A DNA stretch of 64,000 nt from Rhodothermales bacterium (GTDB lineage Bacteria; Bacteroidota; Rhodothermia; Rhodothermales; UBA10348), in the NCBI GenBank assembly GCA_028284865.1, contig JANQQV010000026.1, positions 1-64,000 of the forward strand. The letters run 5' to 3'. The first letter of the stretch is position 1, and the number at the start of each line of letters is the position of its first letter. The translations under genes and the position numbers were made by a program. The notes under the pieces are model-generated. The model was not told the origin of the DNA, did no database searches, and saw nothing but the letters and a program-made list of their open reading frames with translations. Below, piece by piece: positions 7,787 to 64,000 of this stretch.

Positions 7787-12067
<4,281 letters not shown>

Positions 12068-12137: not shown

Positions 12138-12173
12138 ATGGGCGCGGCTGCCGCAGGCAGCCGCGCCCATTTT
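12138..12173 (+). terminator. Rho-independent terminator of the rpoBC operon
   Basis: A perfect 15-bp stem has arms ATGGGCGCGGCTGCC (12138-12152) and its complement (12156-12170), a GCA loop and then TTT. It starts 70 bases after the rpoC stop codon. Confidence 0.9.
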
Positions 12174-12415
12174 CGTTCATCCACTTGGTGACGATAACCT
12201 CGAAAAGGCGGGTGTTACTTCCGCAGGTTGTTTCAGCGGCTTTCCGAATGACCGGGGAATGAACCCGGCACGATCCGGGACCGAGATTTAACACGATCAC
12301 CACGAGGTGGGCGCATCCTCGAACTAAGGTCCTCGTACTGACCCGCATTCGACACCCCAGACTGATTCACCACCAAGACAGATTGACCTCCTAGACAGGG
12401 GCACTGCTTCTCTAC
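12174..12415. other. Gene-free spacer after rpoC terminator
   Basis: Together with 12068-12137 this makes about 350 bases without a gene. I see no credible reading frame, tRNA or strong palindrome beyond the rpoC terminator. The stretch probably carries the promoter of the small membrane protein at 12416, but no clear -35/-10 pair could be chosen. Confidence 0.4.
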
Positions 12416-12730: not shown

Positions 12731-12739
12731 TCGATCGAT

Positions 12740-13681
12740 TCAGTCGCAGGCGACCACGATTCCGGAAACGACTTCGCGCTGGTAGGTAGCTCCAGTAGGA
12801 CGATTGAGTAGATCATCGCGAACGATGAAGGTACTTGATCCGCCCCCGTCCAGATTGAGCGCATCCTCGGCGTCAAATTCCAGCATCAAGCCAGCCAGTT
12901 CCTGAAGCGTCACGCCTCGACTGGCGCCTTGTCGACCATCCACGACCAGCAACAGCAGGTTGCCATCGTCATCAATTCCTGCAGCCGTTCGTGGGTGTAC
13001 GTCCGGGATGGTCGTGTGGAAGAAGACTTCCTCTTCTTCTGCAATGTTCACGGCCCCATCCACGACGATCATAGGGCCAGCTGCGAGGGCGTCTCGGGCA
13101 TTCCAATAGGCTCCGAGCGAGTCCTCCTGGCCGCTGTAAGGCACATCAGGCGCGTTGTCGACTGGTGCATCCCACCAGAACGAGGAGTCCTGCCTACTGC
13201 TGACCCAGCCAATACGTGCTTCGTCAGAAGCATCCAATCCAAGCGCAGAGCGCCGCACGGGATACCGGGCATCGCCTACAAAGACGCCCGGAGTTGCGGA
13301 ATGCTCGAAAGAGCCGTCGGCAATCAATAGCCCGATATGCTCGAATTGCGAGTCATTCTCCAGGAAATATCCGCCATTGACTCCCAAACAGGCTTGCTGG
13401 GATCGCACCATATCACTCACGGATTCTCTGCCATCGTCATCGGCGGAAGCCACAACGCGGACATCAATCGCGGGATCATTCAGGTTGATGCGCGCCAACC
13501 AGGCCTTCAAGGGAGCCGATTCGTCTTCTCCTGCGAAAACCTCAATGCCCGATGGAAGGCCCAGGCTCTCGCTTTGCTCGTCCCAGGTCATTGCCAACGG
13601 TCCGGTTGACGTGTGCGATGGCTCACACCCCGACATGACTACAAAGGCAGCAACGAGTACCGTGAAGCGTTGAATCCGCAT
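12740..13681 (-). CDS. Phosphodiester glycosidase (NAGPA)-family lipoprotein
   Basis: The 313-residue product starts with a lipoprotein signal and lipobox VMSGC (cysteine 19), so it should be anchored in the envelope. The rest resembles the NAGPA/DUF2233 fold, related to the enzyme that uncovers mannose-6-phosphate in animals. Landmarks are GVNGGYF, RTAAGIDDDGNLLLLVVDG and the closing ALNLDGGGSSTFIVRD. In bacteria such proteins are thought to cleave sugar phosphodiesters of the envelope; the substrate is unknown. It is divergent from the sigma-factor operon, with a 267-base shared control region. Confidence 0.85.
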   Translation of the reverse strand: MRIQRFTVLVAAFVVMSGCEPSHTSTGPLAMTWDEQSESLGLPSGIEVFAGEDESAPLKAWLARINLNDPAIDVRVVASADDDGRESVSDMVRSQQACLGVNGGYFLENDSQFEHIGLLIADGSFEHSATPGVFVGDARYPVRRSALGLDASDEARIGWVSSRQDSSFWWDAPVDNAPDVPYSGQEDSLGAYWNARDALAAGPMIVVDGAVNIAEEEEVFFHTTIPDVHPRTAAGIDDDGNLLLLVVDGRQGASRGVTLQELAGLMLEFDAEDALNLDGGGSSTFIVRDDLLNRPTGATYQREVVSGIVVACD

Positions 13682-46091: not shown

Positions 46092-49000
46092 TTACCTGGC
46101 TTTCACGATCGCCTTTGATGCGACCTGAGAAGCGCCCCCCGCGCGCGAAGTGACCCGGACGAAATAAACGCCGGGGCTCCAGGTTGCCGCATCGAGAATC
46201 CCACTTCCTTCTCCCTGCGACATGAGTCCTGAAACCGAGTGGGCCACCCGTTGCCCGAGAGCATTGATCACTTCGATCTCCACCGATCCTGGGGAAGGGA
46301 GAGTCCAGGTCACGGTGGCTCGGGAAACGAATGGATTGGGGTAAACACTGGTCAGTTCCAGGCCAGCTGGCAATTCGTTGCCATTCTCAAGGCCAACAGC
46401 CGTGATCAACGGCAGCGCTTCAGTCATTCCTGTTGACGCAATGCGTAGAAGTCTCAAGGGACCTTGATCTACGTTGGCATCGGAGACAATCCACAGCTCC
46501 GATTCAGAGAGTTGGGTCTGGGACGCCACGGTGAATGAAGCCAGGAATTCGTCATCGCTGGCGCTTCGAAAATGGAGTTCGAATTCTTCTGAGGGGACTG
46601 GAATCCAATTTGAATATTCCCCTGCTGCCAATAATCCTCCATCGGTAGTCGTACCACCACGCACGATTTCGGAGGAGATCGATCCGGCATTCACGGCATT
46701 GTGATACAACATGATCGATTCGAATCCGCCCAGGTCCTGAACGTGTTCGGTAGATGGCTGATCAGGCTCCGATAAAACCACTCGAGTAATTCCGTCTGAC
46801 CTGATCACTCCGGTACCCGATACCGTCCAATCTCCTGTCCCGGAAATCGAATAGGTAAATGCCTCGTCTCCTTCCGACCAACCAAGGACCTTCTGAATCG
46901 TGGCGGATTCAGGACCGACCATCATGTTCTCTTCCTGCAGTGAAACCGTCACCGGCTGGTCAGTAAGGTTGACCCACTGAACGCGACCCGAAATGTCTGC
47001 CTGGGAAGACGTGTACCCGTATCCCAACTGAATCGATTCGCCCAGCAACAGTCCTGTCGCATCGATTTGCTGCAAAAGCTGTCCGGATGTCGTTCCGCCA
47101 CGCACGAAGGACCCACTTATCGGGGACCACAACCCATCCTGAAGGATCATGAGCGCGTCGACCTCGCGTTCTATTCCCGTCGGTACTACAACGGAAAGAT
47201 TGAGTGGAAGGGACTGGGCGAAATTGACATCGCTTTCTATGACCATGGCCTCCGTCCCAACCTCGGCAATGAGTCCGCTTCCAGAAGCACCGGCCAGCCC
47301 CGTCTGATCCAGCCATCTGCGTTGGATGGGGAAGACGGAAATTCTTGAGTCAGAGAAAGGGCGAATGGAAGGGGTCAGGGTCAACGGGAAGTAGTTTCCG
47401 TCACGTCCGACGGGAAAAAAGAGCGGATCCAGGGCACCACTTTGCATTGTGCGTTCTACAGGCGCCTCGATGTGGGAGGCTACATCCAGAGGCGCGCTAC
47501 GACTGACACTTCCATCCAATGTGAACCGGACATCTGAACTGCGCAGTACACCACCCGCCAGCATGAGTCCTCCCGAAATCGAAATGCGTTGGGCGTGGTC
47601 TCCAGAACCGAACACGTCGACCATCCCCGGAGCCGACTGGTTCATGGTCAATGTGCTGATCGATATGGGCACACCCACCGTCCAGCTCTGGTTGCTCCCG
47701 TTGAAAACCAACGTTTGAGGTGAGAACGAAGGGTCCCGAACAATCAGGTTTCCCGACACGCTGATGGACAGATTGGTCGCCGCGCCATTCATGTCGGAGG
47801 TGCCCTCGACCGACAAGCGGATGTTGTCCGTGATTGAGCCTCCATCGAGTGAAATCGTGCCGCCTACGCTCAGTTCAGATACTTGGGCGGAAGACAACCG
47901 CGTTCCTTCGATGCTAAGGTCTTCCTGAACCGAAACTGATCTTCCATTGAGCCTCAATCGGGAAGAAAACTCCGTCGGCGACGTGATGCGCATGTGATCC
48001 ACAGAAAGATCCTGCGCAAGGCTTGCAATAAGCGAAGGACGGGAAAACGCGATCCAGAGGGTATCGACGTCCGCTGCAAACGACAGCGGTTCTGAAGACG
48101 TAACTGACTTGCTCCAGTTGATTCGCTCCATGTTCACGGGAGAAATCGAGCTGGTTACCTGTCCAGGTGCGTCAAGATCAACTGCCGTTTCGATGATCCA
48201 GGATCCGGGAGACATCGAGATGACACCTGTCCCGGTAGCCCGTCCAGAGATAGCTGAAAACGTGTCCCGGATCAGCACATTGTTGTTCAGAACGATCTCC
48301 TGAATGTCTGAGCCACTGTTTCCTGCTGCGATATGCAGGGAGGCCAGCTGAGGAGCCAATTCAGCCCCGCCTGTCAAGACCGGGGAAGACGTAAGCCTGT
48401 TCACTCCGGCCCAGGAGCCATCGTCGATGTGGTACAGAAGGTTGTAGCTGTCACCTGTCACCCGGGACGAAAGCGTACCACCTCCTTCGCGGATAACCCA
48501 TGCCTCGGGCGCGATCTGCATTTCGGTATCGGCGGCAAGAGAAAGGGACCCGTTTCCTCTTCCGAACACGAGACGATCAGAAACGGTTACCGTATTTCCC
48601 GAAGCGTTCAGTCGAACGGATCCTTCTATCCTGAGGGAAGAGACGCTCAATCCGGACGTCGCGGAGACTCCTGCGTTTCCAGAGCCGACCACCACGAGTT
48701 CACTATGGAGATCATGCTGTGCTTGTGTCGGATCCACGATGACATTCATCGCGGAAGTGGAGGCAGGGGGTTCCTGGCGGGTCGAAGATCGGACGATCCC
48801 TCCGTCAAACAAGAGCAGGTCAGGCGTACTTCCTGATACAACAATGTCAGCTCCTTCAAGGGAAACCTCTCCCGACCGGAAAGCGGCATTTCCGGTCGAA
48901 ATGACCATTGAACGGGATTGGTCGGAACGGACTGTCCACTCGGTACCGTCCATTGAAAGTAAAACAGCCTGAAGCTGAAGATCTGCTTCCAAGGTGACGC

Positions 49001-52000
49001 TTCCGGTTTCTGTCCATTGCAGCTGAGCCTGTCGCGAAGCAAAATCACCCTGCAGTACGGACGGTACGGATCCGTCGACGGAGGTAACGGTCAGGTCTGC
49101 ACCTTCCAGGACGAGTGTAGCGCTTTCCAGGTCCAGGACGGCCTCTGAAAGCGTCAATTCGCTCCCGATGGCCAAGTTGGCCAGCAGCCTTGCTTCCGAA
49201 CCGGGGAGGATACTAACGGAGGGCAATTGGACAGAAACGTCCAGATCTGCTTCGCCATTGAGGATCAGATTGCTGGAGGACTGGGCGTCGACATCTACCC
49301 AGCTGGACTGGGGGTCAATAACGAGGGAGCTGTTGCCGTTCAGCACCCAGCTCGATTGCTGCTCGAACAACAGATTGCTTGCTTCGATATTCAGGTTCGT
49401 GGAAGAAAAAGAAACCTGAACGCCGACAAACTGGAGCGTGCTGCCTTCTACTGTCATGGAGCCCAACGTGAGGGCTTGCCCGGGATCCGCCAACCAGTCA
49501 ATATCGGAGTCTGTGGCAATGAGCGTATTGATGGAGCCGGAGAGGACGAGGTCTGTGGTAGCGCCCGTTCCTGTTTCAATTTGTAATGAGGTGATATCTG
49601 ACGAAGCGCCCGTTATCAATCGAACATCACCTCCTTGCAGGATGACTGCCTCCGATCCGTCTATGTGTCCGTTTATCTGATGCGTCGTGTTCGAACTGGC
49701 AAGGAAGAGGGGTCCTTCGTCCAAAAGAACTCTAGAATTGGCTCCGGAAGAGAAGCCGCCCTGAACAATCATCGAGCCCGGAATGCCCACTGGAAACACA
49801 GGAGGGGTATTGGCGGCATCAAACGCGTCTATGCTGAAGTCGAAAATGGGAAGGGAAAGCCAGCGCTCGTCCAGAACGTAGGGTGCGGTCATTCCACCCA
49901 AGAGCCGCAAGGAGAACGAGCCTGAATAGGACAACACATTTTCGAAACCCGAACCATCGATTCCCGGAGAGCTGTTTTCGGAATCTGTCAGATTCAGCGA
50001 CAAGGTTGGAGTGTCCAGGAATAGGACAGGCTTGTTACCGAGGTCGATGGAACCGGTATTGAACGACACATTTCCTGCGACGCGAAGAGTGTCCACGGAG
50101 CTGTCGGTTTCCAGGAAATCAGCATCCGAGAGTAGGTTCACTACAAAGTCGCCGAAGACGCCGTTACCACTCACGGTAATGGGTTGCGCACCTCCAGCGT
50201 TGCCAATGGTCCATTGGGCGGTGCCGGAAATCGATCCTCCGTTGTCAATCAATGGGTCATCCCCGGCCGCCATAAACCGCAGAACGGGTTCATTCACTTG
50301 AATCTGAGCTTGGGGTGCTAAGGTCATGCGTGTCCGAGCCGTGACCATTCCCGACCCAGTCAGGGTCACTGAGTCTTCCAGGAGAAGATTCTCGGTGGAG
50401 ATGACGCCGTCAATCAGCACGCTCCCCCTGAACGTCATTTCGCTTGCGACACCTGAATACGAGCCGCCCAGAAAATGCCCCGTTCCCCCCAGGATCAGAT
50501 TGGCTCCATCAACGGTCCATTGGGAGCCCTGGTCGGTCACCGCCCCATTCGAGAAGAACGTCGTTGATGTGCCAAAAGAAACTACGGCATTCGTAAAGAC
50601 AGATCTTTCTGAGACATTCAGCGTGCTCCCGTCAGGGACGACAAGCTCTCCGCTGACTACCGAAAGGGTCCCGAGGATGGTTGCATTCTCTGAGAGCTCT
50701 ACCCTGGTATTGCCAATGGCAATCGACGGGAGCACGGTAGAGGAAAATCCTTCAATAGTCGTTACCCCTGGATTCACCAGGCTGAGGACTCCTCCGGAGA
50801 TGACCTCAAAAACACCGCTGGATCGCGAAAGAGAGCCTAAAATCTGCAATGTAGAATTTTCCTGGATGGACAGCTCCCCGTCTTCCAGGTGCAGCCCAGC
50901 ATCCAGCAAGGCAGTTCCGAAAAAACGGGTAACCGCTCCGGGAGCATCTATAAGCAGTGCTGGGAGCACAATCTCCGAGGGAAACACCAAGTCAATTGTG
51001 CTCCCGCTTTTCGGACCCAATCCCGACTCAGGAAACGCGATGCTGCCTCCCAGAACGGAAACAGCTTCTCCAATGCGCAGTGGTTCATCAGCCGTGAGCA
51101 GAGCAGCGCCGGCGGAAACAGTCAATCGATCGAGGTCCAGACCACCCACATCCGTCTGGAATTCGCCTCCGTCAACGGTGATCGCGGATGCTCGGACCGT
51201 GGTGTCGTGCTGCCAGGAGAGCCTTCCGGATTCAACGGTTAGGTCACCGATGGCTTCACCGCTGACCATTCCCGAAATGGTTCGGGATCTTACAGCGGGA
51301 ATGTCCGCGCCGTTCTCGACAGTGACCTGGACCGCGGTTGCCAGCAGCACGATCTGCGGATCTCCCGCCCAGGAACTGGTTGCGCCTATATATATGGAGT
51401 TGGCAACCTCGAACGATGCAGATGTTGCGCTTGCAAGATCGATCCCGCCCTGCACGTCCGTCGTTCCCGCGCGAAGGACACCCGCACCAGACTGCTGAAT
51501 ACTTCCGTTGGTCGCAATAGTCAATGAATCGACTTCCATGCCTCCCAGGATGGCCGCCGTACCCGTTCCGGCCACGTTCAGGCTGCGTATCCGTCCGCCA
51601 GCCTGAATCACGCCTTCACCGGTAAATCGCAGCCTTGAATCAGATTCAGATAAGGTCTGAATGGTCGTAGAGGTGCCTGAAACCACCAATTCCGTACCCG
51701 TATCGGGTGCATCGACGGCGTCTGCTTCGATGTTGAAGCCATTGGAATCAACGTTTCCGGCCAGCAGAATGCGGCCAGACGCGCGAAGGTCACCATTCAA
51801 AGAGAGAGGCGTTGTTGGCGAACCGACGGTCAACAGTCCTGAAGACATGTCGATATCGATCTCCGAGGATGACGGAGAAATGGCCTGAATCCGGGCCTGG
51901 GTGGCTTCCAATTGCAGCAATCCCCTTGATGAGTGCGTACCGGAAAGGTCTCCAATTGTGACATCCGGCACACTGATCCGCAGTTGTGGAGCGGATCCGC

Positions 52001-52823
52001 TGAATTGGATGCCGCCAGGAAAGCTCAGCGTAGCATCGGTAGACTCCAGTAGTGATAGTCGGTCTCCGGGAACGGTGATCGAGCCGGAAAATGAGGTCGT
52101 GGCAGAGGAGTAGAATTGCAGGTCGACGTCTCCCAGCGAGATATCCAGGCTGATTGAGGCCCCGCCTTGATGATCCAATTCGACACGTGAACCTGTGGAT
52201 AGCAGCTCCTGTGTCAAGGAAATGGGTTCTGAAAGGGTCTGCGCACCGGATATCCGGATAACCCTGGGCGTTTCAGACCAGGAAGGGTTGCCGGCCAGGC
52301 TGCCACCGGCAAATTCGATGACGGAATCCTCAGTGTCGCCACGTCCGAGTCCGCTCCATATGGTCGTCGAAACCCCGGAAATGTCGAGAACGCCATCGGT
52401 GAGTGCGAGACGGGATGCGGAACTGTTCGCTACAACGCCCTCTCCGAGGTGCAATACATCTGTTGTGCCCGCAATCCATAAGGCGGTTCCACCGGGAATC
52501 GCCACATCCAGAAATGGGGCTGACACCAGCACCGTGTCTGCGCCGGCAAACTCATTCAGTTGAAAGGTGACTGAGTGCGAGCCGGCCAAAGTGATTCCAT
52601 CCTCGTCGGCGCCGAACGCATACTCTCCTGCCGCGAGGCATATGACGTCACCCTCGCTTGCTCTTGAATAGGCATCCTCGACGGATCGCAGTGGAGCCGT
52701 GACGGCACCCGAATTTCCGTCAGAGCCGTCGGAGGCGTTGACGAAAATATCGCACGATTGAGCGTGGACCGTCGACCCACCCAAAAGGAGGATCAGCAGG
52801 GCTACAGCAAAGGACGAACGCAT
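46092..52823 (-). CDS. Giant T9SS-secreted surface protein
   Basis: The 2243-residue product starts with a signal peptide (ALLILLLGGSTVHA) and a pectin-lyase-like opening (CDIFVNASDGSDGNSG ... GDVICLAAGEYAFG). The long middle is a chain of short strands rich in Ser, Thr, Gly, Val and Leu (LTVSGG/ILDISG-like), probably a solenoid. Near residue 1750 comes ERTMQSGALDPLFFPVGRDG, then GNYFPLTL. The end is a T9SS type A sorting domain, LTSVYPNPFVSRATVTWTL ... SPGVYFVRVTS. No catalytic motif was noticed. It is divergent from a similar giant gene across 518 bases. Likely a surface fibre or adhesin; function unknown. Confidence 0.88.
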   Translation of the reverse strand: MRSSFAVALLILLLGGSTVHAQSCDIFVNASDGSDGNSGAVTAPLRSVEDAYSRASEGDVICLAAGEYAFGADEDGITLAGSHSVTFQLNEFAGADTVLVSAPFLDVAIPGGTALWIAGTTDVLHLGEGVVANSSASRLALTDGVLDISGVSTTIWSGLGRGDTEDSVIEFAGGSLAGNPSWSETPRVIRISGAQTLSEPISLTQELLSTGSRVELDHQGGASISLDISLGDVDLQFYSSATTSFSGSITVPGDRLSLLESTDATLSFPGGIQFSGSAPQLRISVPDVTIGDLSGTHSSRGLLQLEATQARIQAISPSSSEIDIDMSSGLLTVGSPTTPLSLNGDLRASGRILLAGNVDSNGFNIEADAVDAPDTGTELVVSGTSTTIQTLSESDSRLRFTGEGVIQAGGRIRSLNVAGTGTAAILGGMEVDSLTIATNGSIQQSGAGVLRAGTTDVQGGIDLASATSASFEVANSIYIGATSSWAGDPQIVLLATAVQVTVENGADIPAVRSRTISGMVSGEAIGDLTVESGRLSWQHDTTVRASAITVDGGEFQTDVGGLDLDRLTVSAGAALLTADEPLRIGEAVSVLGGSIAFPESGLGPKSGSTIDLVFPSEIVLPALLIDAPGAVTRFFGTALLDAGLHLEDGELSIQENSTLQILGSLSRSSGVFEVISGGVLSLVNPGVTTIEGFSSTVLPSIAIGNTRVELSENATILGTLSVVSGELVVPDGSTLNVSERSVFTNAVVSFGTSTTFFSNGAVTDQGSQWTVDGANLILGGTGHFLGGSYSGVASEMTFRGSVLIDGVISTENLLLEDSVTLTGSGMVTARTRMTLAPQAQIQVNEPVLRFMAAGDDPLIDNGGSISGTAQWTIGNAGGAQPITVSGNGVFGDFVVNLLSDADFLETDSSVDTLRVAGNVSFNTGSIDLGNKPVLFLDTPTLSLNLTDSENSSPGIDGSGFENVLSYSGSFSLRLLGGMTAPYVLDERWLSLPIFDFSIDAFDAANTPPVFPVGIPGSMIVQGGFSSGANSRVLLDEGPLFLASSNTTHQINGHIDGSEAVILQGGDVRLITGASSDITSLQIETGTGATTDLVLSGSINTLIATDSDIDWLADPGQALTLGSMTVEGSTLQFVGVQVSFSSTNLNIEASNLLFEQQSSWVLNGNSSLVIDPQSSWVDVDAQSSSNLILNGEADLDVSVQLPSVSILPGSEARLLANLAIGSELTLSEAVLDLESATLVLEGADLTVTSVDGSVPSVLQGDFASRQAQLQWTETGSVTLEADLQLQAVLLSMDGTEWTVRSDQSRSMVISTGNAAFRSGEVSLEGADIVVSGSTPDLLLFDGGIVRSSTRQEPPASTSAMNVIVDPTQAQHDLHSELVVVGSGNAGVSATSGLSVSSLRIEGSVRLNASGNTVTVSDRLVFGRGNGSLSLAADTEMQIAPEAWVIREGGGTLSSRVTGDSYNLLYHIDDGSWAGVNRLTSSPVLTGGAELAPQLASLHIAAGNSGSDIQEIVLNNNVLIRDTFSAISGRATGTGVISMSPGSWIIETAVDLDAPGQVTSSISPVNMERINWSKSVTSSEPLSFAADVDTLWIAFSRPSLIASLAQDLSVDHMRITSPTEFSSRLRLNGRSVSVQEDLSIEGTRLSSAQVSELSVGGTISLDGGSITDNIRLSVEGTSDMNGAATNLSISVSGNLIVRDPSFSPQTLVFNGSNQSWTVGVPISISTLTMNQSAPGMVDVFGSGDHAQRISISGGLMLAGGVLRSSDVRFTLDGSVSRSAPLDVASHIEAPVERTMQSGALDPLFFPVGRDGNYFPLTLTPSIRPFSDSRISVFPIQRRWLDQTGLAGASGSGLIAEVGTEAMVIESDVNFAQSLPLNLSVVVPTGIEREVDALMILQDGLWSPISGSFVRGGTTSGQLLQQIDATGLLLGESIQLGYGYTSSQADISGRVQWVNLTDQPVTVSLQEENMMVGPESATIQKVLGWSEGDEAFTYSISGTGDWTVSGTGVIRSDGITRVVLSEPDQPSTEHVQDLGGFESIMLYHNAVNAGSISSEIVRGGTTTDGGLLAAGEYSNWIPVPSEEFELHFRSASDDEFLASFTVASQTQLSESELWIVSDANVDQGPLRLLRIASTGMTEALPLITAVGLENGNELPAGLELTSVYPNPFVSRATVTWTLPSPGSVEIEVINALGQRVAHSVSGLMSQGEGSGILDAATWSPGVYFVRVTSRAGGASQVASKAIVKAR

Positions 52824-53341: not shown

Positions 53342-56300
53342 ATGACTACTCAGAGACTGCTACAATTTCTGTCACGCAGCGTGGCTGCGGTGGTATTCCT
53401 GTTCGCCTTTGTAGGCGCACAGAATGCCTTCGCCCAGACGATCTTCGTATCGTCGACCACGGGTAGTGACGCGTTCGACGGCGCCAGCGCCACCATTACT
53501 GGTGGTTCTGGTCCGAAGGCTACGCTCGCTGCAGCTTACGCCGCTGCCGCTGCTGGCAACACGATCAGCATCGAAGCAGGTACCTATACGGAGAACTTCG
53601 ACTTCGGGACAGCCGCCAAGGGTGTCACGGTCGTCGTTACCGCATCAGGTGCTGTGACGGTAGCAACCTTTACCGGTACGTCCACCATCGCCGTGACGAC
53701 CGGAACCATTGATCTGACCGGCGGAACCGGATCAGTCGCAGTCTCGGGTGGTGCGTTTACGCTCACTTCGGGAACCCTCGCCTTGGGCACAGGGAAACTC
53801 GCCTTCACGGCCGCCACGACATTGACTGTCACCGGTGGTGCCGCCTCCGGTGCATCCCCTGCATACACGGGAGCGGTAACAGCCAACTACACGATGTCAA
53901 CCGCTCGCGCAGCCGGAACGGAGATTCCGCTGAACCTCAACGGCGGTACGCTGACGGTCAATGGTGCCAACAGCACGACATTCTCGCAAATCCTTGTTGC
54001 GGGTAGCATCGTCACGGCAGCCACTGCAACGGGAACGACAACGTTCTCCAGCGCTGTTACGATCAACGGTGCAGGTGGTATCGTCCACAACGGTGATGAT
54101 GTTGTGTTCGGCGCAATCACGATGAACAACAGTGCGATCACCTCCACGGGTGGTGGTGCCAACCAGACGTTCACCGCTGGTGCGATCACGGTCAGCCAGA
54201 GCACTGGTGTAGCTGGTGGTACGTTCAACAATACGTCGGCAACCTCAACCGCAACCATTGCTAGCCTCACGGTCAATGCAACAATCGGTGGTGCAGGTAA
54301 CGGTGCAGACGATGTGCTTGCCTACACGATCACCAACACGGGTACCATGACGGTTTCTGGCGCAATCACTGAAGGTTCTGCTTCAGACGCCAACGAAATC
54401 GACGCCAATGCCGTTGCTATCACAAACAGCAACTCCCTGACGATCGGCGCGAGCTCCTCTGTCTCGGGCGCGTTCAACAACACTGGCGGAACACTTGCCC
54501 TGGGTTCGACGACGTTCACACTGGCACCAACAGCTGTGACGCCTGCTACCCACCTAGCTCTCGTAGCCATGGGAACGGTTACCGGTTCGGGTTCGACTGT
54601 TGTCGTTTCCCGTAACATTGGTGTCCCTGCTTCGGCTGGAGCCGCTGCTCCTGCATTCGATATCGCAGGTAACCTGACCGTTTCCGGAACGGGCGGTATC
54701 GCCGGTGCCATTTCGGTCGGCGGTAGCGTTACGAACTCCGGAGCTGGTGACACGGCTGCTGCCGTTCGCACGGGTGCCAACTTCACCCAGAGTGGAAACG
54801 GAGACGTTACCGCTGCCATCATCGTCGGCGGCAACCTCACGCTGACCGGTACGAATGGCGATGTTTCCGGTGGTGGTTCCTTCGACGTTGCAGGTAACGC
54901 CACGTTCGGCGGAACCCACGCGATTTCGTCTGGTGCCGGTACGAACGATGTTGACGGTGTGGCCACCTTCTCCGGTGCGTTCACGATCGCCGCAGGTGGT
55001 AACACCATCATCGGTTCAGGTACGATCACCAGCGCTGGTAACGTGACCATCAGCAACGGTACGACCCTTACTGTCAACGGTAGCTTCGATGCTTCCAATG
55101 GTGGTGGGTTCACTGCTGATGCTGCTGCAAACTCCGCCGCAGACAATGCCACGCTTGCATTCGTCCTTCCCCAGGCTTCAAGCTCTACCTACACTCCTGG
55201 TCCCAACACGCGCATCGACGACCTCACGGTCAACCTTGCCGCTGGTGCCACGTCTGGTACGCTTACGATGGGTCAGTCGGTATTCATCGATGAGAACTTC
55301 ACGACGGGTGCCAACACGACCATCAGCCTTGGCAACTTTGCCATCCGCATGGCAGGTAATGCAGCTACTGCAACCGTTGGCGGCGCAATCACTACGCCCG
55401 CTGGGCAGTCCGGTGCTCTGACGTTCGAAGGAACGGGTACCACACTGGGTGGTCTCGGTGACATCTCGAACATCTTGGTCAACGTTGGAGGTGGTAACCT
55501 CCTGACGATTGCGGCGGCTACGAGCGTTGACTTCACCGGTGAGCTGACGCTCTTCACGGGTGGAATCACGGTTCCTGTCGGTTCTGACATCTCACCTGAA
55601 GGTGCACTCGCCGAAGTGCGTCGTAACTCTGCTGGTGCAGCAGCGGTAACGGCAATCGTAGGTGGGGGAACGTTCAATGGTGACACCCGCACGTACATCC
55701 TCTCAATCTTTGGTGGTGCCGCTGTTGCTGCTCTCAATGAGTTGTCGGCTACGGGCATCACGCAGCTTAACGTCGAGGATGCAGGAACGAACTACACCAC
55801 TGACAAGAATGCCACAGTTGGTAACGTGAACGTCGAGTTCGGCGCCACGCTGACCAACGGTGCTGGTTTCGACCTCACGTCAACGGGTTCGGTAACGAAC
55901 GCCGGTACGATCGCTGGTGCACCTGGTGACCAGCTGATCCTGACCGGTGACAGCCAGTCCCACACCAACACGGGTGTGATGACGGCTGATCTGAGTGCAC
56001 AGGCTTCCGGCATCACGATGGCCGGTACGGCCACGCTGCGCACGGCTGCTCCTTTTGCTGCCGCCAGCCTTACCAACCTGATCGTCGGTGACGGCGTAGG
56101 TGGTACGGGTGCTGAGTCCATCACGATCACCAACATGCAGCAGATCGACGGAACGGTCACCATCGCGAGCGATGGTACGGCCTCGATCGGTCTGGTGCAG
56201 GACGACGGTGCCGGTGGTACCGGTACGGGTGACGAGGGTACGGTTGATGGCGCCATCACGGTTGCCAACGGCGGTTCCCTTACCTGGACGTCCAACGTTG

Positions 56301-59300
56301 GTGCAGACGCTGCCATTACGGTCGGTACGGCTCCTGTCGGAACGGCTCCTACGTTTGATTTCAACGGCAACACGGTCAACCTGATCACTGCAGGTACCTT
56401 CTCGGCTGTCTCCAACGCGAACCTCGGTTCCTCGGGTGAGATTGAAGCTGATCACGGTGCTGCAACGGTTGGTACCAACCTTGACGGTGCAGCCACGCCG
56501 ACCTCGGCTCTGCCTGGTCTGGACGTAGACGCCGCAACGGCTCTGTCCTCCGCAACGCGCGTCGTTGGGATGACGGACATCGATGCTGCCCTCACCGGTG
56601 CCCTCTCGCTGACCCTTTCAGGTACGGTTCACATCAATGCTGGCATCACGAACAACGTGACCATCATTGGAACCGACGTCATGGTGCAGGGCGCTGAAGT
56701 CCTCACCGGTACGCTCACCATCAACGCAACTGCAGTCAACTTCACAGGAGACGCTGTTGCTGGTGCAGACAACCTGACGGTAACGGGCCTCTTCACTCAG
56801 ACTGCTGGTAATGTTGACCTCAACGGTGTCGACATCATCCTTCAGGCTGGTGCTGATTACTCGGCTGGTGCCTACACGGCTCAGAACAGCACGGATGAGT
56901 TCATCTTCAACACTGGTGGTGCCATTGACATCAACGGTGGAACGTGGGTCATCCAGAACGCCGTATTCGATGTAGCCATGCTCATCGACGGTAATGCTGG
57001 AACGAATCAGGATGTCCTTACCATTGCCAACCGTCTCGAGCTGTCCGTCAACCTGACGGCCGGTAACAACTCTGGTGCTGGCACGCCTTCCGGTGTCATC
57101 AACCTCGGTGACGGCTCCGGTACCTTCTACCTCGACGCCGACGGCGGTAACGTCGTTGACGGTGGTGCAGACGGTACGATCGGTTATGGTGCAGACACCA
57201 CGACCATCGAGTACAACGGTACGGCCCTCACGGGTGCTGAACTCTTCAGTACGTTTGATACGCTGATCATCAACGCCGCTGCTGCGTTCGCCAACGGTGC
57301 GACGCCAACGGTCAACACGATCGACATCAACGCTGGTGGTCTGACCATTGCCAACCCGGGTCTTCCTGCTGCTGCTGAGTCCCTGACTCTGACGGCAGAC
57401 GGTACGTTCCGCTCCGGAATGAACAACCCGTTTGGTGTTCCTGGTCTCGGTGTCCTGGGTTACACAGCTGCCGACGCCACGGATTACAACCTGACGTTCG
57501 ACAACGCGTCCACCCTGACGGACGCTCTGTCCTGGCCAACGGCCAACACACCTGACCTCCTGATCTCGCCTCTGGCGACCGGTGTAGGAGGAACGGTTGC
57601 GCTCCACGCTGCCCGTACGGCAACGAGCGTAGAGGTTCAGAACCTTGATACGTTGGATCCACAGACGTTCAACATCACCATCACAGGAGCTATCGACCTG
57701 AATGGCAACCCCGCTGCTATCCAGAGCACGGCTGGTGCCAACCAGGGATCGGTTGTCTTCGGTGGTACGATGGCACAGACGCTGGACGGTGGCCTCTGGT
57801 ACAACGGTCCGGTCAACGTGAACAACGCTGCCGGTCTCACGCTTGCCAACGGTAACCTGAACGCAACGAACAACAACACGAACGCTGCTTGTACGCTGCC
57901 AGCTGGTACCAACCCGCTGACGCTGACGGCCGGTACGGTCACGACGGGTACGAACCGTGTGATCCTCTGCCACCTCAGCACGACGGATCAGGGCTTCCAG
58001 CGCAACGGTACGACCCAGACGGGATCGATCTTCGGTAACGTCCAGGCAACGGTTGACGGAACGCTTTCCGGCAACACCACGGATCGTGTTGAATTCCCGC
58101 TTGGCGACATGGACGGCAACTACCGTCCATACGCCATCACGTTCAACACGCCGAACCAGCTCGCTTCCGATCCGGTCCTGCTCGCCACGTACGTTGGCAG
58201 CTCGCCGATGGGAACGAATGGTCTGCCTATTGCAACGACGGATCTGCAGAGCAACAACTTCAATGTTGGTCGCTATCCAGAATTCCACTGGAGAGTCCAG
58301 TCGACACCGACGGTTACGCCGTCCATCGACTACGACGTTGAATTCCGCGCTGCTGGTTACTCCAACTTCGCTGGCGAAGACATCGAGCGCACACGCGCCA
58401 TGCGTCGCGCAGACGGTTCCACGAACAACTTCTGGATCCTCTCCGCGCCGAATGCATCAGACAACGACAACTTCGCAGCTTCCAACACGGAGCCGATCGC
58501 AGTAGCTCGTAATGCTGAAGGTGCCATCTCCGGTGACGGTGTTCTCTTCACCTTCGGTCTGGAGACCAACCTCGCGTCCACTGATCCTGCAGCTCTGACG
58601 CTGAACGCTGGCAACTCCGAAGTCATCGACCTGACGACGGTGTTCTCCGGTGGTGGCGCAACGCGCACCTACACCGTAACTGGTGCTGATGGCGCAGTCG
58701 TCACGACGGCAGTTGCAGGTGACAACCTGACGGTTACTGGTGCTGGCGCTGGTTCCGATACCTTCACGGTAACGGTATCCGACGGCTTCCAGAGCGTAGA
58801 TGCTACGGTAACGGTTACGGTCAATGCAGCCCTTGCAGCAGCAGGCGGTCTTGCAGACGTAGCAGTAGCCAACGGCACGGTTTCGGCCGACGTTGACGCC
58901 TCCGGTGACTTCTCCGGTGGTACCGCACCTTACACGTACGCTGTTGCTACGAGCGACGCTGCTGTAGTCACGGTGACGGTCAGCGCCAGCGGTGTGGTTT
59001 CCCACACGTTTGTTGGTGTTGGAACGGCAACGGTCACTGTCACGGTCACTGACTCTGAAGGTGACTCGGTCAACAGTGCGTTTGACGTAACCGTCAACGG
59101 TACTCTCGTAGCCGCTGGTGGCCTGGCCAACCAGACGGTTGCTGAAGGCGCCGACGTTGTCAACGATGTCACTGGTGAGTTCTCCGGTGGTAACGGTGCC
59201 GCAACCTTCACGTACACCGCCGCGTCATCCGACACGGGTGTAGCTACGGTTGCAGTTGCTGGTGCCAACGTCACCGCGACGGGTGTCTCTGCCTACGTTG

Positions 59301-60262
59301 TAACCGGTGGTGCAGTAACGGCTGATGCCGCTCCTGCAACGGTCACCGTTACGGCTACGGACGACCTCGGTGCATCGATGACCTCTACGTACACCGTGGA
59401 CGTCACGCCGAAGCTCGGAAACGTTGACGGTTCTGGCGGCGCTTCGCCGGCAGGTGCATCTGCAGTCCTCAACCACTTCCTTGGTCTGTCCACGCTGACT
59501 GCCAAGCAGCAGGTTGCTGCCGACTATAATGCAGACGCAGCCATCACTCCATTCGACGCCGCTCTCATCTTCGATGCCTTCTTCAATGGCAAGGATGAGA
59601 TCGCTGCCAACCCGGCAGTTGACGTTGTCTACGGAGAGCTGAACCGCGAAGACAACATCATCACGATCCCTGTCCAGCTGACGGGCAACGTTGATGAAGT
59701 CGTCTCTGGTTACTTCAGCACGCGCATCGATCCTGCAATGGCAACGATTGTTGGTGTCACGTCAGAACTGGGTGATGGCTGGATTGCCAACCACACTGTT
59801 TCTGAAGAAGGTGATGTCCTCATCGCGTTCGCTGGATTCGGTTCCGTTGATGCTGAAGGAACGATTGCTCATATCGCTATCGAGCTCAACGGCTCGGACG
59901 TACAGTTCAACCTGGGCGGTGAAGGCGCAGCCAACAACAACGCTTCGATGACCATCGACGCAGTTGAAGTTGCTGAACTGCCTGAAACGTTCGCACTGCA
60001 CGGCAACTATCCGAACCCGTTCAACCCAACGACCTCCATCAGCTTCGACCTTCCTGAGTCGGCCGACGTTGAGATCCAGGTTGTTGACATGATTGGACGT
60101 CAGGTCATGACCCTCCAGGCAAACACGATTGCCGCAGGTGTCAACCGCACGGTTCAGATCAACGCCTCGCAGCTTGCATCCGGGTCGTACTTCTACCGGG
60201 TCATTGCTAAGATGGAAAGCAAAACTCTTGTCGAAACTGGCCGCATGATGCTGGTCAAGTGA
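53342..60262 (+). CDS. Giant T9SS surface protein with dockerin- and cohesin-like end
   Basis: About 2306 residues. Signal peptide (VAAVVFLFAFVGAQNAFA), then a pectin-lyase-like opening (IFVSSTTGSDAFDGAS ... GNTISIEAGTYTENF). About 1600 residues of Gly/Thr/Ala/Val-rich strand repeats and Ig-like domains near 1790-2020 follow. The end holds a dockerin-like pair (GNVDGSGGASPAGASAVL, then ADYNADAAITPFDAALIF; bases 59416-59590), a cohesin-like domain (to about 59970) and a T9SS sorting domain (HGNYPNPFNPTTSISFDL). ATG 53342 follows AGAGG by eight bases; ATG 53318 is an alternative. Codon choice (ACG, GGT, GCT, AAC) is strongly biased, as in rpoB, suggesting high expression. Probably a structural surface protein. 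Confidence 0.88.
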   Translation: MTTQRLLQFLSRSVAAVVFLFAFVGAQNAFAQTIFVSSTTGSDAFDGASATITGGSGPKATLAAAYAAAAAGNTISIEAGTYTENFDFGTAAKGVTVVVTASGAVTVATFTGTSTIAVTTGTIDLTGGTGSVAVSGGAFTLTSGTLALGTGKLAFTAATTLTVTGGAASGASPAYTGAVTANYTMSTARAAGTEIPLNLNGGTLTVNGANSTTFSQILVAGSIVTAATATGTTTFSSAVTINGAGGIVHNGDDVVFGAITMNNSAITSTGGGANQTFTAGAITVSQSTGVAGGTFNNTSATSTATIASLTVNATIGGAGNGADDVLAYTITNTGTMTVSGAITEGSASDANEIDANAVAITNSNSLTIGASSSVSGAFNNTGGTLALGSTTFTLAPTAVTPATHLALVAMGTVTGSGSTVVVSRNIGVPASAGAAAPAFDIAGNLTVSGTGGIAGAISVGGSVTNSGAGDTAAAVRTGANFTQSGNGDVTAAIIVGGNLTLTGTNGDVSGGGSFDVAGNATFGGTHAISSGAGTNDVDGVATFSGAFTIAAGGNTIIGSGTITSAGNVTISNGTTLTVNGSFDASNGGGFTADAAANSAADNATLAFVLPQASSSTYTPGPNTRIDDLTVNLAAGATSGTLTMGQSVFIDENFTTGANTTISLGNFAIRMAGNAATATVGGAITTPAGQSGALTFEGTGTTLGGLGDISNILVNVGGGNLLTIAAATSVDFTGELTLFTGGITVPVGSDISPEGALAEVRRNSAGAAAVTAIVGGGTFNGDTRTYILSIFGGAAVAALNELSATGITQLNVEDAGTNYTTDKNATVGNVNVEFGATLTNGAGFDLTSTGSVTNAGTIAGAPGDQLILTGDSQSHTNTGVMTADLSAQASGITMAGTATLRTAAPFAAASLTNLIVGDGVGGTGAESITITNMQQIDGTVTIASDGTASIGLVQDDGAGGTGTGDEGTVDGAITVANGGSLTWTSNVGADAAITVGTAPVGTAPTFDFNGNTVNLITAGTFSAVSNANLGSSGEIEADHGAATVGTNLDGAATPTSALPGLDVDAATALSSATRVVGMTDIDAALTGALSLTLSGTVHINAGITNNVTIIGTDVMVQGAEVLTGTLTINATAVNFTGDAVAGADNLTVTGLFTQTAGNVDLNGVDIILQAGADYSAGAYTAQNSTDEFIFNTGGAIDINGGTWVIQNAVFDVAMLIDGNAGTNQDVLTIANRLELSVNLTAGNNSGAGTPSGVINLGDGSGTFYLDADGGNVVDGGADGTIGYGADTTTIEYNGTALTGAELFSTFDTLIINAAAAFANGATPTVNTIDINAGGLTIANPGLPAAAESLTLTADGTFRSGMNNPFGVPGLGVLGYTAADATDYNLTFDNASTLTDALSWPTANTPDLLISPLATGVGGTVALHAARTATSVEVQNLDTLDPQTFNITITGAIDLNGNPAAIQSTAGANQGSVVFGGTMAQTLDGGLWYNGPVNVNNAAGLTLANGNLNATNNNTNAACTLPAGTNPLTLTAGTVTTGTNRVILCHLSTTDQGFQRNGTTQTGSIFGNVQATVDGTLSGNTTDRVEFPLGDMDGNYRPYAITFNTPNQLASDPVLLATYVGSSPMGTNGLPIATTDLQSNNFNVGRYPEFHWRVQSTPTVTPSIDYDVEFRAAGYSNFAGEDIERTRAMRRADGSTNNFWILSAPNASDNDNFAASNTEPIAVARNAEGAISGDGVLFTFGLETNLASTDPAALTLNAGNSEVIDLTTVFSGGGATRTYTVTGADGAVVTTAVAGDNLTVTGAGAGSDTFTVTVSDGFQSVDATVTVTVNAALAAAGGLADVAVANGTVSADVDASGDFSGGTAPYTYAVATSDAAVVTVTVSASGVVSHTFVGVGTATVTVTVTDSEGDSVNSAFDVTVNGTLVAAGGLANQTVAEGADVVNDVTGEFSGGNGAATFTYTAASSDTGVATVAVAGANVTATGVSAYVVTGGAVTADAAPATVTVTATDDLGASMTSTYTVDVTPKLGNVDGSGGASPAGASAVLNHFLGLSTLTAKQQVAADYNADAAITPFDAALIFDAFFNGKDEIAANPAVDVVYGELNREDNIITIPVQLTGNVDEVVSGYFSTRIDPAMATIVGVTSELGDGWIANHTVSEEGDVLIAFAGFGSVDAEGTIAHIAIELNGSDVQFNLGGEGAANNNASMTIDAVEVAELPETFALHGNYPNPFNPTTSISFDLPESADVEIQVVDMIGRQVMTLQANTIAAGVNRTVQINASQLASGSYFYRVIAKMESKTLVETGRMMLVK

Positions 60263-60271
60263 TCGGGCAAC

Positions 60272-60296
60272 GGGCGGGGCGCCTAGCGCCCCGCCC
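60272..60296 (+). other. GC-rich hairpin after giant gene
   Basis: A perfect 11-bp stem GGGCGGGGCGC/GCGCCCCGCCC with a CTA loop lies 9 bases after the stop codon, but no T-run follows. It may protect or process the mRNA, or weaken read-through into the next gene, rather than end transcription fully. Confidence 0.55.
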
Positions 60297-60325
60297 ACCT
60301 TGCTTCCATCCTGGCAACTCACCCC

Positions 60326-62530
60326 ATGAAGAGCGAGAATCCAATGCAAATGCTTCTTAACAAGTGGATCAAGACGGCCGCACTTATCCTGGCTGTCATG
60401 TTGGTCGGAACGGGTACGAGCTCGGCGCAGGTGACTGTGTCCACGAATGACATCACCGGTCGTCCCGGTGAAACGGCTACCATTGCCGTTGATATCTCAG
60501 GTGTCGAAGGCGGCACCGATATCCAGTCGTTCGGCTTTTTCGTAACGACCGACGCCGGTGTGACATTCACCGGCCACGACACATCCGGCACGCTTTCTGA
60601 AGCAGCCGGCTTCTCTGTCAACTCCAACACCACAAATGGTGGTGTCGGTGGTTTCGCTCAGGGTACTAACATCTCCGCTTCCGGAACGCTGGTCAAGCTG
60701 AACTTCAGCCTGGACACGAACGGAACGACTGGCAATGTGACGCTCACGACCTTTGCTTTCAACGGTGGCAGCCCCACTGTTGTAGGTGGCGATCCGATGA
60801 GCTCCTTCACTGTTTCCAGCCGCATCATCAACGTAGCTGATGCCATGGTTGGCGAGTCTTCAAACTTTGAACTCATGTTCAACCTAGAAGACGCGCTGGT
60901 CGCTGGTGACGGTGTTGTATCGTTCAACTTCGATATCGATTACGACCCGACTCTCATGTCAATCGACAAGACGATGGGTGTTAACGGTGTGGTAGTTGAC
61001 GGTGTATCTGCCGGTGCCACGGTCAACGGTAATGATGTTGACGCTGACACGTATCGCGTCGCTGGCTTCGCCAGCTCCGCCATGGTCGGCGATGGCCTGT
61101 TCATCAAGCTGGCTGCAACTTCTACTGCAATGGCAGGAAGCGCACCGCTTACGTTGCGCAACGTAGTGTTCAACGCCGGTAACCCGGTCTACGCACCTCG
61201 CAGTGCAACGCTCATGGTCAATGCGACCAACTTTGCTCCTGTCTTCACTGCTGAACTGAGCGACACCTCAGTTCTGGAAGACGGTGGTATGGTGACGTTT
61301 GACTATGACGCCACGGATCAGAATGGCGACGCACTCACCTACAGCCTCAACGGACCTGGTTCGATTGACGCTACGACGGGTGTTTGGTCACTCGACCCAG
61401 CAGGCAAAGCTGGTGTTCACACGGTCGAAGTTTCTGTCACCGATGGTGTCAACACGACGACTACTTCTGCCATGGTAACGGTCAAGCAGGTCGACCTTCT
61501 CGAAGCAAGCCTCTCTGGCTTCAACGAGGTTCCTCCTACGGCTACCGTTGCTTCTGGCATGGTTGACATGCGACTGGTTGCTGCAGACAATCTGCTTGAA
61601 GTGACCTTCAATGTCATGAATCTGGCTGGTGATCTCACCGCTGCCCACATCCACCTCGGTGGTGTTGGTCAGAATGGTGGTGTCACGCTGAACCTGGCCC
61701 CAACAGGCTCCTCCTTCACAACCTCCTACGACATCACCGGCAACGCTGATATCGTTGGTGCGCTTCGTGGTGGTGGTGCTTATGTGAATGTGCACACGTC
61801 GGCTTACCCGGCTGGTGAAGTTCGCGGTCAGGTCCTCTCCGCTGGCAACTCAGCTCCGAATGAAGCAAGTGCCCTTGCACCTTCGAGTGTAACGGTTGCT
61901 GGCGATCCGGGAGCTACGGCATTCTCCGTATCCTGGCTGCCAGTTGCTGATCCTGATGGTGACACGGTCAACTACCTGTTCCAGATGGCATCGGACGCCG
62001 GCTTCTCAGACACGTTCTCCCTGGACAACTTCGGTCAGACGAACGGTATGGCAGTATCCAATGAAATGGCTGCAATGCTGTACGATGAACTGACCATGTC
62101 CAGTCCGGGCAGTGTTGACATCGGCGGAATGGTAACGTTCTACCACCGTGTCATCACGACGGACGGTTCCAAGTGGAATGCCGGCGCAACCGCCAGCACG
62201 ACGTTGACGCGTGGTCTCGTCACGGACACTGAAACGGATGCGGCGCTGCCGACAGAGTTCGCTCTGAAAGGCAACTACCCGAACCCGTTCAACCCGACGA
62301 CGACCATTTCCTTCGATCTGCCTGAGTCGGCAGACGTGACGGTTCAGGTTCTCGACCTTCTCGGTCGTGAAGTCATGGCCATCCCGTCTCAGACCATGCA
62401 GGCAGGCGCAGGACAAGCTGTCCAGATTGACGCTTCCAACCTGTCTTCCGGTATCTATCTGTACCGGGTCATTGCTCGTGGTGCAACCACCACCAGCATG
62501 CAGGTCAAAACGATGACGCTGCTCAAGTAA
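60326..62530 (+). CDS. T9SS protein with two cohesin-like and one CHRD domain
   Basis: This 734-residue exported protein has a signal peptide (ALILAVMLVGTGTSSAQ) and two cohesin-like domains in tandem (about 35-170 and 175-300; second with SFNFDIDYDPTLMSIDKTMG). A cadherin-like domain follows (about 305-392, DATDQNGDALTYSLNGPG), then a CHRD domain (about 395-508, NEVPPTATVASGMVDMRL ... AHIHLGG ... SAYPAGEVRGQVL). A fibronectin-type domain and a T9SS sorting domain (KGNYPNPFNPTTTISFDL) close it. ATGs at 60344 and 60350 are alternative starts. It may pair with the dockerin-like part of the preceding giant protein; that is inference. Confidence 0.9.
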   Translation: MKSENPMQMLLNKWIKTAALILAVMLVGTGTSSAQVTVSTNDITGRPGETATIAVDISGVEGGTDIQSFGFFVTTDAGVTFTGHDTSGTLSEAAGFSVNSNTTNGGVGGFAQGTNISASGTLVKLNFSLDTNGTTGNVTLTTFAFNGGSPTVVGGDPMSSFTVSSRIINVADAMVGESSNFELMFNLEDALVAGDGVVSFNFDIDYDPTLMSIDKTMGVNGVVVDGVSAGATVNGNDVDADTYRVAGFASSAMVGDGLFIKLAATSTAMAGSAPLTLRNVVFNAGNPVYAPRSATLMVNATNFAPVFTAELSDTSVLEDGGMVTFDYDATDQNGDALTYSLNGPGSIDATTGVWSLDPAGKAGVHTVEVSVTDGVNTTTTSAMVTVKQVDLLEASLSGFNEVPPTATVASGMVDMRLVAADNLLEVTFNVMNLAGDLTAAHIHLGGVGQNGGVTLNLAPTGSSFTTSYDITGNADIVGALRGGGAYVNVHTSAYPAGEVRGQVLSAGNSAPNEASALAPSSVTVAGDPGATAFSVSWLPVADPDGDTVNYLFQMASDAGFSDTFSLDNFGQTNGMAVSNEMAAMLYDELTMSSPGSVDIGGMVTFYHRVITTDGSKWNAGATASTTLTRGLVTDTETDAALPTEFALKGNYPNPFNPTTTISFDLPESADVTVQVLDLLGREVMAIPSQTMQAGAGQAVQIDASNLSSGIYLYRVIARGATTTSMQVKTMTLLK

Positions 62531-62553
62531 GCAACCCATCGTTTAGAAACGTG

Positions 62554-62593
62554 AGCGGGCGCGGATCATTCGATCCGCGCCCGCTTTGTTTTA
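62554..62593 (+). terminator. Rho-independent terminator after CHRD/cohesin gene
   Basis: A perfect 14-bp stem AGCGGGCGCGGATC (62554-62567) with its complement (62572-62585), loop ATTC, then TTGTTTTA. It also shows that a TTG start at 62586 for the next gene is not likely. Confidence 0.92.
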
Positions 62594-62612
62594 TACAAAC
62601 CTCAGACGCCTC

Positions 62613-63101
62613 ATGACTACGAAGATGTTAATGCGTGTGCTGCTTCCGGTGATGCTGAGCCTGATGGCCCAGATCCCTGTATTTGGACAGGTACAGGTTT
62701 CATTGACTCCGACAATGGTTGCTGCAGACACAACACATATTGATGTGGAATTGTCTACAGCCGATGGAAGCAGCTTCGATCCAGTCAGCAGTTTTCAGTT
62801 CGCCGTCCGGTCAGATGACGAAAGGATCAGATTGGTGGGTATCAAAACGGATTGGACGCTCACAGGAGAAAGTGGCTGGACGGCGCGAGCCAACCCTGAA
62901 AATGGTCGCGTGGGCGGATTCAGTTCACAGCTGGACGCATTCGAATCGCCAGGCGTGATGGTGACGTTGGTATTCGTACACGGGGATTTGTGCGGGGAAG
63001 CAATCGGTATCTCGCTTGATATTCTCAAGCTCAATACGGGGTCACCCCCGCATCATCCGACTATTCCATTCACTACCTTGCAATTTGCTGACTGCGAATG
63101 A
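62613..63101 (+). CDS. Exported single cohesin-like protein
   Basis: The 162-residue product has a signal peptide (VLLPVMLSLMAQIPVFG) and one cohesin-like domain: VSLTPTMVAADTTHIDVELS, VSSFQFAVRSDDERIRLVGI, GWTARANPENGRVGGFSS and VMVTLVFVHGDLCGEAIGI. The GRVGGF stretch matches one in both neighbouring cohesin-like proteins. There is no sorting domain, so it may stay in the periplasm or reach the surface by another route. ATG 62613 is chosen as the upstream TTG lies in the terminator. A small degraded paralogue is also possible. Confidence 0.75.
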   Translation: MTTKMLMRVLLPVMLSLMAQIPVFGQVQVSLTPTMVAADTTHIDVELSTADGSSFDPVSSFQFAVRSDDERIRLVGIKTDWTLTGESGWTARANPENGRVGGFSSQLDAFESPGVMVTLVFVHGDLCGEAIGISLDILKLNTGSPPHHPTIPFTTLQFADCE

Positions 63102-63198
63102 TGCAGTCTGATATGCATCTATCAGAAGAAACTTGGCCCTCAGGCGTGAATACAAAGCCTTTGGACCTGGTCCGACAATCTGAACCATCGATAACTGT

Positions 63199-64000
63199 AT
63201 GATCCGACAGATACGATTCTTCTCTGCCATTCTTTCTTTGATGCTCGTTTGGGGCGCGTCTTCAGCGCATGCTCAAATGACTGTCTCGGTGGACAATATT
63301 TCGGGTACGAGTGGGCAAACGGTATTCGTACCGGTAAATCTCGGAAACGTACCGGGAACTGGATTCAGCTCGTTCCGCTTCGACGTATCGATCAGCAACA
63401 ACAACTTGACCTTCAACGGCCACTTGTCTACGGGTACGTTGTCGAGTCAGGCGGGTTGGTCTGTTCAGTCCAACGACAGTAACGCACTCAACAACCCGGG
63501 TCGTGTGGGCGGATTCGCCTCGGCTAATGATGCGATTACGAGCGATGGTGTTCTGGTCCTTCTCTCGTTCACGATCAATGGTACTGATGGTGGATCCGTG
63601 GTGGAATTGCAAGGCATGCAGTTCACACAAGGAGGGACGGTCGCTCATACTCCGGCCCTGCCCATCACGCAACTGGTGATCTCCAATCCTCCTGTTGCAA
63701 CAGATGATGCGTACGCCGTCGACGAAGGAGGCAATCTGGTTGTCGCAGCTGGCCAAGGGGTCCTTCAGAATGACACTGATGCTGATGGAGACCCACTCAC
63801 GGCGTCTCTCGGCACCGACGTATCCAATGGAACGCTGTCGCTTGCGGCAGATGGTTCATTCACGTACACCCACGATGGTTCGGAGACGACCACCGATTCG
63901 TTCACGTACACGGTATCTGACGGCTCAAATGTGGATACAGGAACGGTTACCATTACGGTCAACCCGGTAAATGATCCGCCCCAGTTCACGGCGACGCTTT
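63199..64000 (+). CDS. Exported cohesin-like / cadherin-like protein (partial)
   Basis: The frame opens at ATG 63199 and is still open at the window end (267 codons seen). A signal peptide (FFSAILSLMLVWGASSAHAQ) precedes a cohesin-like domain (about 27-155; TVSVDNISGTSGQTVFVPVN ... NPGRVGGFASANDAI). A cadherin/VCBS-like domain follows (about 157-262; ATDDAYAVDEGGNLVV, NDTDADGDPLTASL, DSFTYTVSDGSN), ending NPVNDPPQFTATL. The start of the cohesin-like domain resembles that of the gene at 60326 (TVSTNDITGRPGETATIAVD). The 3' end is outside, where more repeats and a sorting domain may follow. Confidence 0.85.
   Translation, partial: MIRQIRFFSAILSLMLVWGASSAHAQMTVSVDNISGTSGQTVFVPVNLGNVPGTGFSSFRFDVSISNNNLTFNGHLSTGTLSSQAGWSVQSNDSNALNNPGRVGGFASANDAITSDGVLVLLSFTINGTDGGSVVELQGMQFTQGGTVAHTPALPITQLVISNPPVATDDAYAVDEGGNLVVAAGQGVLQNDTDADGDPLTASLGTDVSNGTLSLAADGSFTYTHDGSETTTDSFTYTVSDGSNVDTGTVTITVNPVNDPPQFTATL

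Follow-up and report, generated by a model that had tools for sequence, protein, structure and literature searches.

The four consecutive genes A, B, C and D at the end of the window (the whole stretch of 64,000 nucleotides that was analysed, positions 1-64000 of its contig) stand about an even chance of encoding an enzyme-free, T9SS-displayed surface assembly in which, as we infer, A is a major surface protein tied by its dockerin to B. Pfam and NCBIfam profiles found no catalytic domain in A-D (full-length D included), which bears out a statement to that effect in the first-pass annotation of this DNA. Because there are no enzymes and A is predicted to be strongly expressed, the cluster probably serves to build a coat on the cell surface and not to digest anything.

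Architecture of the cluster

The window genome (3.48 Mb, 97.7% complete) carries the genes in succession on the + strand and all four start with a signal-peptide-like stretch (by eye), so that the four successive exported proteins reported earlier were indeed found, with D extending beyond the window end. Gene A (53342..60262, 2306 aa, with the start picked to match the orthologs) encodes a signal peptide, long Thr/Ala/Gly-rich repeats (beta-solenoid-like by eye), an Ig/PKD-like stretch, a dockerin, a divergent cohesin-like domain (Coh') and a T9SS tail; its N-terminal region gave no match in a PDB search and no Pfam domain. Gene B (60344..62530, 728 aa) combines a signal peptide with two cohesins, an Ig-like domain, a CHRD domain, an FnIII-like domain (by eye) and a T9SS tail, and gene C (62613..63101), which has homologues in several relatives, consists of a signal peptide and one cohesin-like domain without such a tail. 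Gene D (63199..65331, 710 aa; the same ORF has coordinates 11199-13331 in the extended locus L008) lies in the window with its first 267 codons (63199..64000) and encodes, in this order, a cohesin, a Big_9/cadherin-like domain, a CHRD domain, an FnIII-like domain (by eye) and a T9SS tail. B and D are paralogues end to end at 35% identity; C is a cohesin paralogue on its own. On the - strand (46092-52823) we also observed a divergently transcribed gene for an exported T9SS giant of 2243 aa, the N-terminus of which resembles that of A.

The cohesin of D (63277..63651) passes the cut-off of PF00963 (39.0 bits for the part in the window, cut-off 24.1) and cohesin 2 of B (60827..61219) stays under it with 18.6 bits, its assignment relying on PDB profile matches and fold. 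Cohesin 1 of B (60431..60796) and the cohesin-like domain of C (62691..63068) were assigned by PDB profile matches and paralogy, together with the fold for the former and a local profile for the latter. A profile built from the two B cohesins of six genomes was run against every PDB chain and gave 13 matches, 12 of which were cohesins (best E 1e-4), and with a broader local cohesin profile nearly all matches were cohesins (best E 3e-9). The two models, of the B dyad and of Coh' in A, have a cohesin fold. The model of the B cohesin dyad (pLDDT 82) had the Acetivibrio cohesin dyad 3l8q as its top match (E 8e-11) and reached a TM of up to 0.73 with single cohesins. Coh' of A (59630..59980, between the dockerin and the T9SS tail) is the most divergent cohesin, and its sequence shows weak similarity to the family (E 0.001 in the local profile search, E 0.4 against cohesins of the PDB); in the search with its model cohesin-like modules rank first (2jh2, E 3e-6, TM 0.62, and 2vo8). 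The cohesin-like domains that had been claimed for all four proteins were therefore recovered in B (two), C and D (one each), and in A as a very divergent domain that is cohesin-like. An assignment by profile to unrelated Ig folds, which had been named as grounds for giving up the idea, was not seen; since the PDB profile matches are almost exclusively cohesins, we rejected a chance or generic Ig-fold resemblance.

The dockerin-like module of A (59405..59596) scores 14.8 bits against the Dockerin type I profile PF00404, below the cut-off of 22.9, and of the two calcium loops that define a type I dockerin (D/N at positions 1, 3 and 5 and D at 12) only loop 2 has the full ligand set (D-x-N-x-D...D, here D40-x-N42-x-D44...D51). 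Loop 1 is degenerate, with the acid at position 12 missing in all orthologs of the window's family. When a profile of nine orthologs was compared with the PDB, it matched 8x39 (E 2e-5) and the ScaB dockerin (E 0.004), and besides solved dockerins nothing came under E 0.2; these matches make the dockerin-like pair noted earlier in A a true homologue, in spite of the sub-threshold Pfam score and the degenerate loop. In an AF2 model that also covers Coh', the dockerin part has a pLDDT below 50. The cut-off of PF00404 is passed by the dockerins of the same-genus genome G004 and of A-like proteins in other families, and elsewhere in the order both calcium loops are mostly kept.

In the window genome the nine-row ortholog profile found one dockerin, that of A, and no match of the Pfam dockerin profile came over its cut-off. 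The C5 giant, initially flagged for a dockerin, looks by eye like a different calcium-repeat protein and was not picked up by the ortholog profile. The genome-wide cohesin profile, which includes the window domains and is thus informative in the absence of others, recovered both cohesins of B, those of D and C, weakly Coh' of A, and one borderline match of 42 residues elsewhere. Because the profiles find one dockerin and no clear cohesins elsewhere, the cohesin/dockerin set of this genome is essentially this cluster.

T9SS type A sorting domains (PF18962/TIGR04183) above the cut-off are present in A (60008..60220), B (62276..62494) and D (65077-65292, beyond the window end) and none was found in C; the earlier count of two T9SS-tailed proteins was right about the tails and has to be raised to three, with that of D outside the window. 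SprA, the T9SS translocon, is encoded in the genome (1932 bits, over the cut-off, positions 10-2318 of 2319), as are about 70 cargo tails over the cut-off. With a signal peptide and a cohesin and without a sorting tail, C may stay in the periplasm. Tail-less C homologues were also observed at L041, L042, L046 and L056. B and D furthermore contain CHRD domains (PF07452, cut-off 24.1) that were absent from the first-pass annotation, a strong one in B (61502..61834; E 2.1e-24, 87.1 bits) and one just over the cut-off in D (E 5e-5, 24.7 bits). The CHRD domains of chordin have been described to bind sulfated glycosaminoglycans (PMC13382577), and a CHRD protein is found in the spore coat of Brevibacillus (PMC5335551).

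Conservation in relatives and the arrangement in family f8

The gene order A-B-(C)-D recurs in the window's genus and in family f1, and downstream of D the relatives have a gene of about 300 aa that gave no Pfam match and looks by eye like one for a membrane protein, a GWxTD gene and asnS (by eye). For 13 proteins with a dockerin and a T9SS tail, from families f1, f6, f11 and f13, the gene that follows on the same strand, 8-191 bp away, encodes a cohesin; twelve of them measure 2182-2770 aa and one is truncated by the end of its contig. The 13 include L107, a different variant found in genome G005 of the window's genus. Exceptions to the pairing are L114, L118 and L113, the latter at a contig edge. 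For L047 the nearest listed cohesin gene lies 2.6 kb off, and a B homologue (827 aa) directly follows A at the same locus (L074). As the genomes are related, the 13 pairings are not independent events. Even so, cohesin matches number only 1-13 per genome. At f1 cohesin loci without A the contig usually ends right there (L042, L046, L051). G011 has homologues of C and D, the latter lacking a cohesin, and we observed no A and no complete B there.

Several variants of the locus were observed. The protein at L107 (4208-14603) is a different dockerin giant, with a two-cohesin protein encoded 8 bp downstream, and the window's A was not found in G005. In f6 (L111, 4671-16379, and L112, 237-12219) a giant with the order Coh-Doc-Coh'-tail is followed by a gene encoding one cohesin and three CHRD domains. 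The same C-terminal cassette is found on a peptidase in G036 (L109, 3286-11124), a subtilase with Coh-Doc-Coh'-tail that precedes a cohesin gene.

A cellulosome-like arrangement was found in the sister family f8. At the locus syntenic with the window, the T9SS-tailed protein of genome G045 has six cohesins (L055, 7503-11087) and that of G033 four by the local profile and three by Pfam (L054, 6908-9580); each gene adjoins one for a small protein with a cohesin and a T9SS tail (in G045 at 11225-11998). This small protein had been considered as a dockerin carrier, which was ruled out, as it carries only the cohesin and the tail. Both scaffoldin-like proteins occupy the locus syntenic with D and contain DUF4397 in addition; another T9SS-tailed scaffoldin-like protein of f8 was observed in G054 (L123, 5542-8223), the range within f8 being four to six cohesins. 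Elsewhere in G045 and G033, C-terminal dockerins above the cut-off occur on proteins that are secreted; among these are a polysaccharide lyase 14, beta-helix proteins that have F5/8C domains and one protein with a weak apiosidase-like match, and most of these dockerin proteins have no T9SS tail of their own. Secreted proteins with a C-terminal dockerin and without a T9SS tail in G045 and G033 are those at L089, L090, L091, L092, L094, L096, L097, L099, L100 and L102; a number of these are polysaccharide lyases or beta-helix proteins. One idea is that the tail-less dockerin proteins of f8 leave the cell bound to a tailed cohesin protein. The tailed multi-cohesin proteins and the dockerin lyases of f8 make dockerin-cohesin recruitment credible in the order Rhodothermales, where these modules plausibly work in the cellulosome style. 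Dockerin-bearing enzymes of the f8 type are absent from the window's lineage.

Predicted expression and transcription units

We scored codon usage per residue by comparing the ribosomal genes of this genome with 85 sampled ORFs. Among these 85, A ranked 1st in ribosome-like codon usage and B 4th, with RpoC and RpoB (both identified by eye) 2nd and 5th, respectively. D ranked 60th, the divergent giant at 46092-52823 61st, and C scored low. The same preference in A and B, high in GGT and low in GGG, was found in G004, G008, G016, G022 and G023, which include other genera of the family; A-like proteins from f11, f13 and G005 do not show it. Judged by this bias, A would be among the most strongly expressed proteins of the cell.

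A strong hairpin that resembles an intrinsic terminator, with a U-tract, follows B (62553..62586, 15 pairs, then TGTTTTAT; dG -32 kcal/mol), and hairpins of similar strength, with changed stems, occupy the same place in eight relatives. The gap between A and B contains a GC-rich hairpin without a clear U-tract (60272..60296), the place of which is kept in relatives; both hairpins were observed to keep their position across genera while the stem sequences vary. Since the codon bias differs and a terminator follows B, we predict that A-B is probably expressed at a high level as one unit, apart from C-D, which would form an ordinary unit. The conserved terminator also weakened a reading of A-D as one operon. 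Of the single structural array that had been proposed earlier, the structural character probably stands, in line with the absence of enzymes, the sole dockerin in the genome, the dockerin-cohesin pairing across families and the high codon bias of A and B; its uniformity does not, as terminator and codon usage split A-B from C-D and C is without an export tail.

Assembly model, alternatives and relation to known systems

In the assembly that we favour, A would be exported by the T9SS, anchored to the outer surface by a type A tail of its own and produced very abundantly as a principal protein of a coat or matrix. The C-terminal dockerin of A, located beside the divergent cohesin-like domain, would plug into one of the cohesins of B; B is encoded by the adjacent gene and would be anchored likewise. 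Since both proteins are tailed, this contact would cross-link neighbouring A and B molecules, not anchor them. The CHRD and Ig domains of B would be presented outward, perhaps to a sulfated or acidic polysaccharide, and C and D could be lower-expressed cohesin paralogues that serve as alternative sockets or coat modifiers. Against a need for docking it counts that A, B and D each have their own tail, so that anchoring works without it. The sub-threshold score of the dockerin in A, the missing acid in its loop 1 and the lack of a tail on C, which gives this protein no evident route to the surface, likewise speak against the model.

A rather unlikely alternative is that the dockerin binds only Coh', in the same chain or in a neighbouring A, as a cap for folding or stability ahead of the T9SS tail, with the cohesins of B, C and D doing something else. 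Such a cap would fit the finding that the dockerin adjoins Coh' in every A protein of the window's family, that the order Doc-Coh'-tail recurs in f6, f11, f13 and some f8 proteins, and that in f6, f11 and f13 an additional cohesin lies directly ahead of the dockerin. If purely intramolecular, it would, however, leave unexplained why a separate cohesin gene directly follows at 13 loci; moreover, Coh' is the cohesin that has diverged most (E 0.4 to those of the PDB), and the f8 enzymes carry a dockerin without any Coh'.

The idea that the cohesin-like domains are plain adhesive or carbohydrate-binding beta-sandwiches, the dockerin of A a relic and the cluster a set of adhesins appears slightly less probable again. 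CBM2, integrin and adhesin folds also came up in the Foldseek searches with the cohesin models, the dockerin has a degenerate loop 1, and the CHRD and Ig modules suggest ligand binding, but the sequence profiles single out cohesins specifically, dockerin and cohesin genes stay paired and, unlike in a relic, D40 and D51 of loop 2 and the helix residues are invariant in the nine orthologs. A cellulosome-like scaffold, in which dockerin enzymes encoded elsewhere would dock on B, C and D, would parallel the apparent arrangement in f8 of the same order. Yet in this genome, 97.7% complete, the profiles find no other dockerin than that of A, a protein without a catalytic domain, and the proteins here have at most two cohesins each, against six in an f8 relative, so that we rejected this reading as highly improbable.

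The surface assembly that we favour shares features with several known systems. For non-cellulosomal cohesin and dockerin modules, which are also described in ANME archaea, the function is stated to be unknown (PMC5244752, citing Peer et al. 2009), and a role in adhesion has been suggested. The cluster belongs with these in having both modules without a cellulosome, and differs in its compact, conserved pair of dockerin giant and cohesin protein, the T9SS tails on both, the CHRD domains and the codon usage of a major protein. For Ca. Stygibacter (Cloacimonadota) a T9SS-anchored cellulosome-like complex was proposed, and T9SS-tailed scaffoldins are known (PMC8542988). Common to both is a cohesin protein that ends in a sorting domain for attachment to the surface, but Ca. 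Stygibacter has tandem cohesins and dockerin enzymes, whereas here the dockerin resides on a tailed giant and no dockerin enzyme is present; the f8 relatives are much closer to that system than the window cluster is. With the clostridial cellulosome the cluster shares the families PF00963 and PF00404 and, for the B dyad model, the best match 3l8q, but it has no catalytic subunits, no more than two cohesins per protein and another mode of export and anchoring. As in chordin and bacterial spore-coat proteins, CHRD is part of an extracellular or coat protein; here it is fused to cohesins and T9SS tails. We found no description of an enzyme-free T9SS dockerin/cohesin pair or of this locus in the literature searched, which included few subscription papers.

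The locus is a minimal case of cohesin and dockerin outside cellulosomes, with one dockerin, a handful of cohesins, one cluster and no enzymes, and it gives a clear prediction of the dockerin partner (B) and of abundance. Comparison with the syntenic multi-cohesin locus of f8 allows the descent of enzyme-docking and structural systems to be tested. Tentatively, and with somewhat more doubt than confidence, we propose a two-component outer coat in Rhodothermales, in which a T9SS giant that ranks with the most abundant proteins of the cell would be cross-linked by its dockerin to a cohesin-CHRD partner, the sister family using the locus for a T9SS-anchored complex that degrades polysaccharides. 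If this is true, the glue of cellulosomes would have found a second use as mortar in a surface layer.
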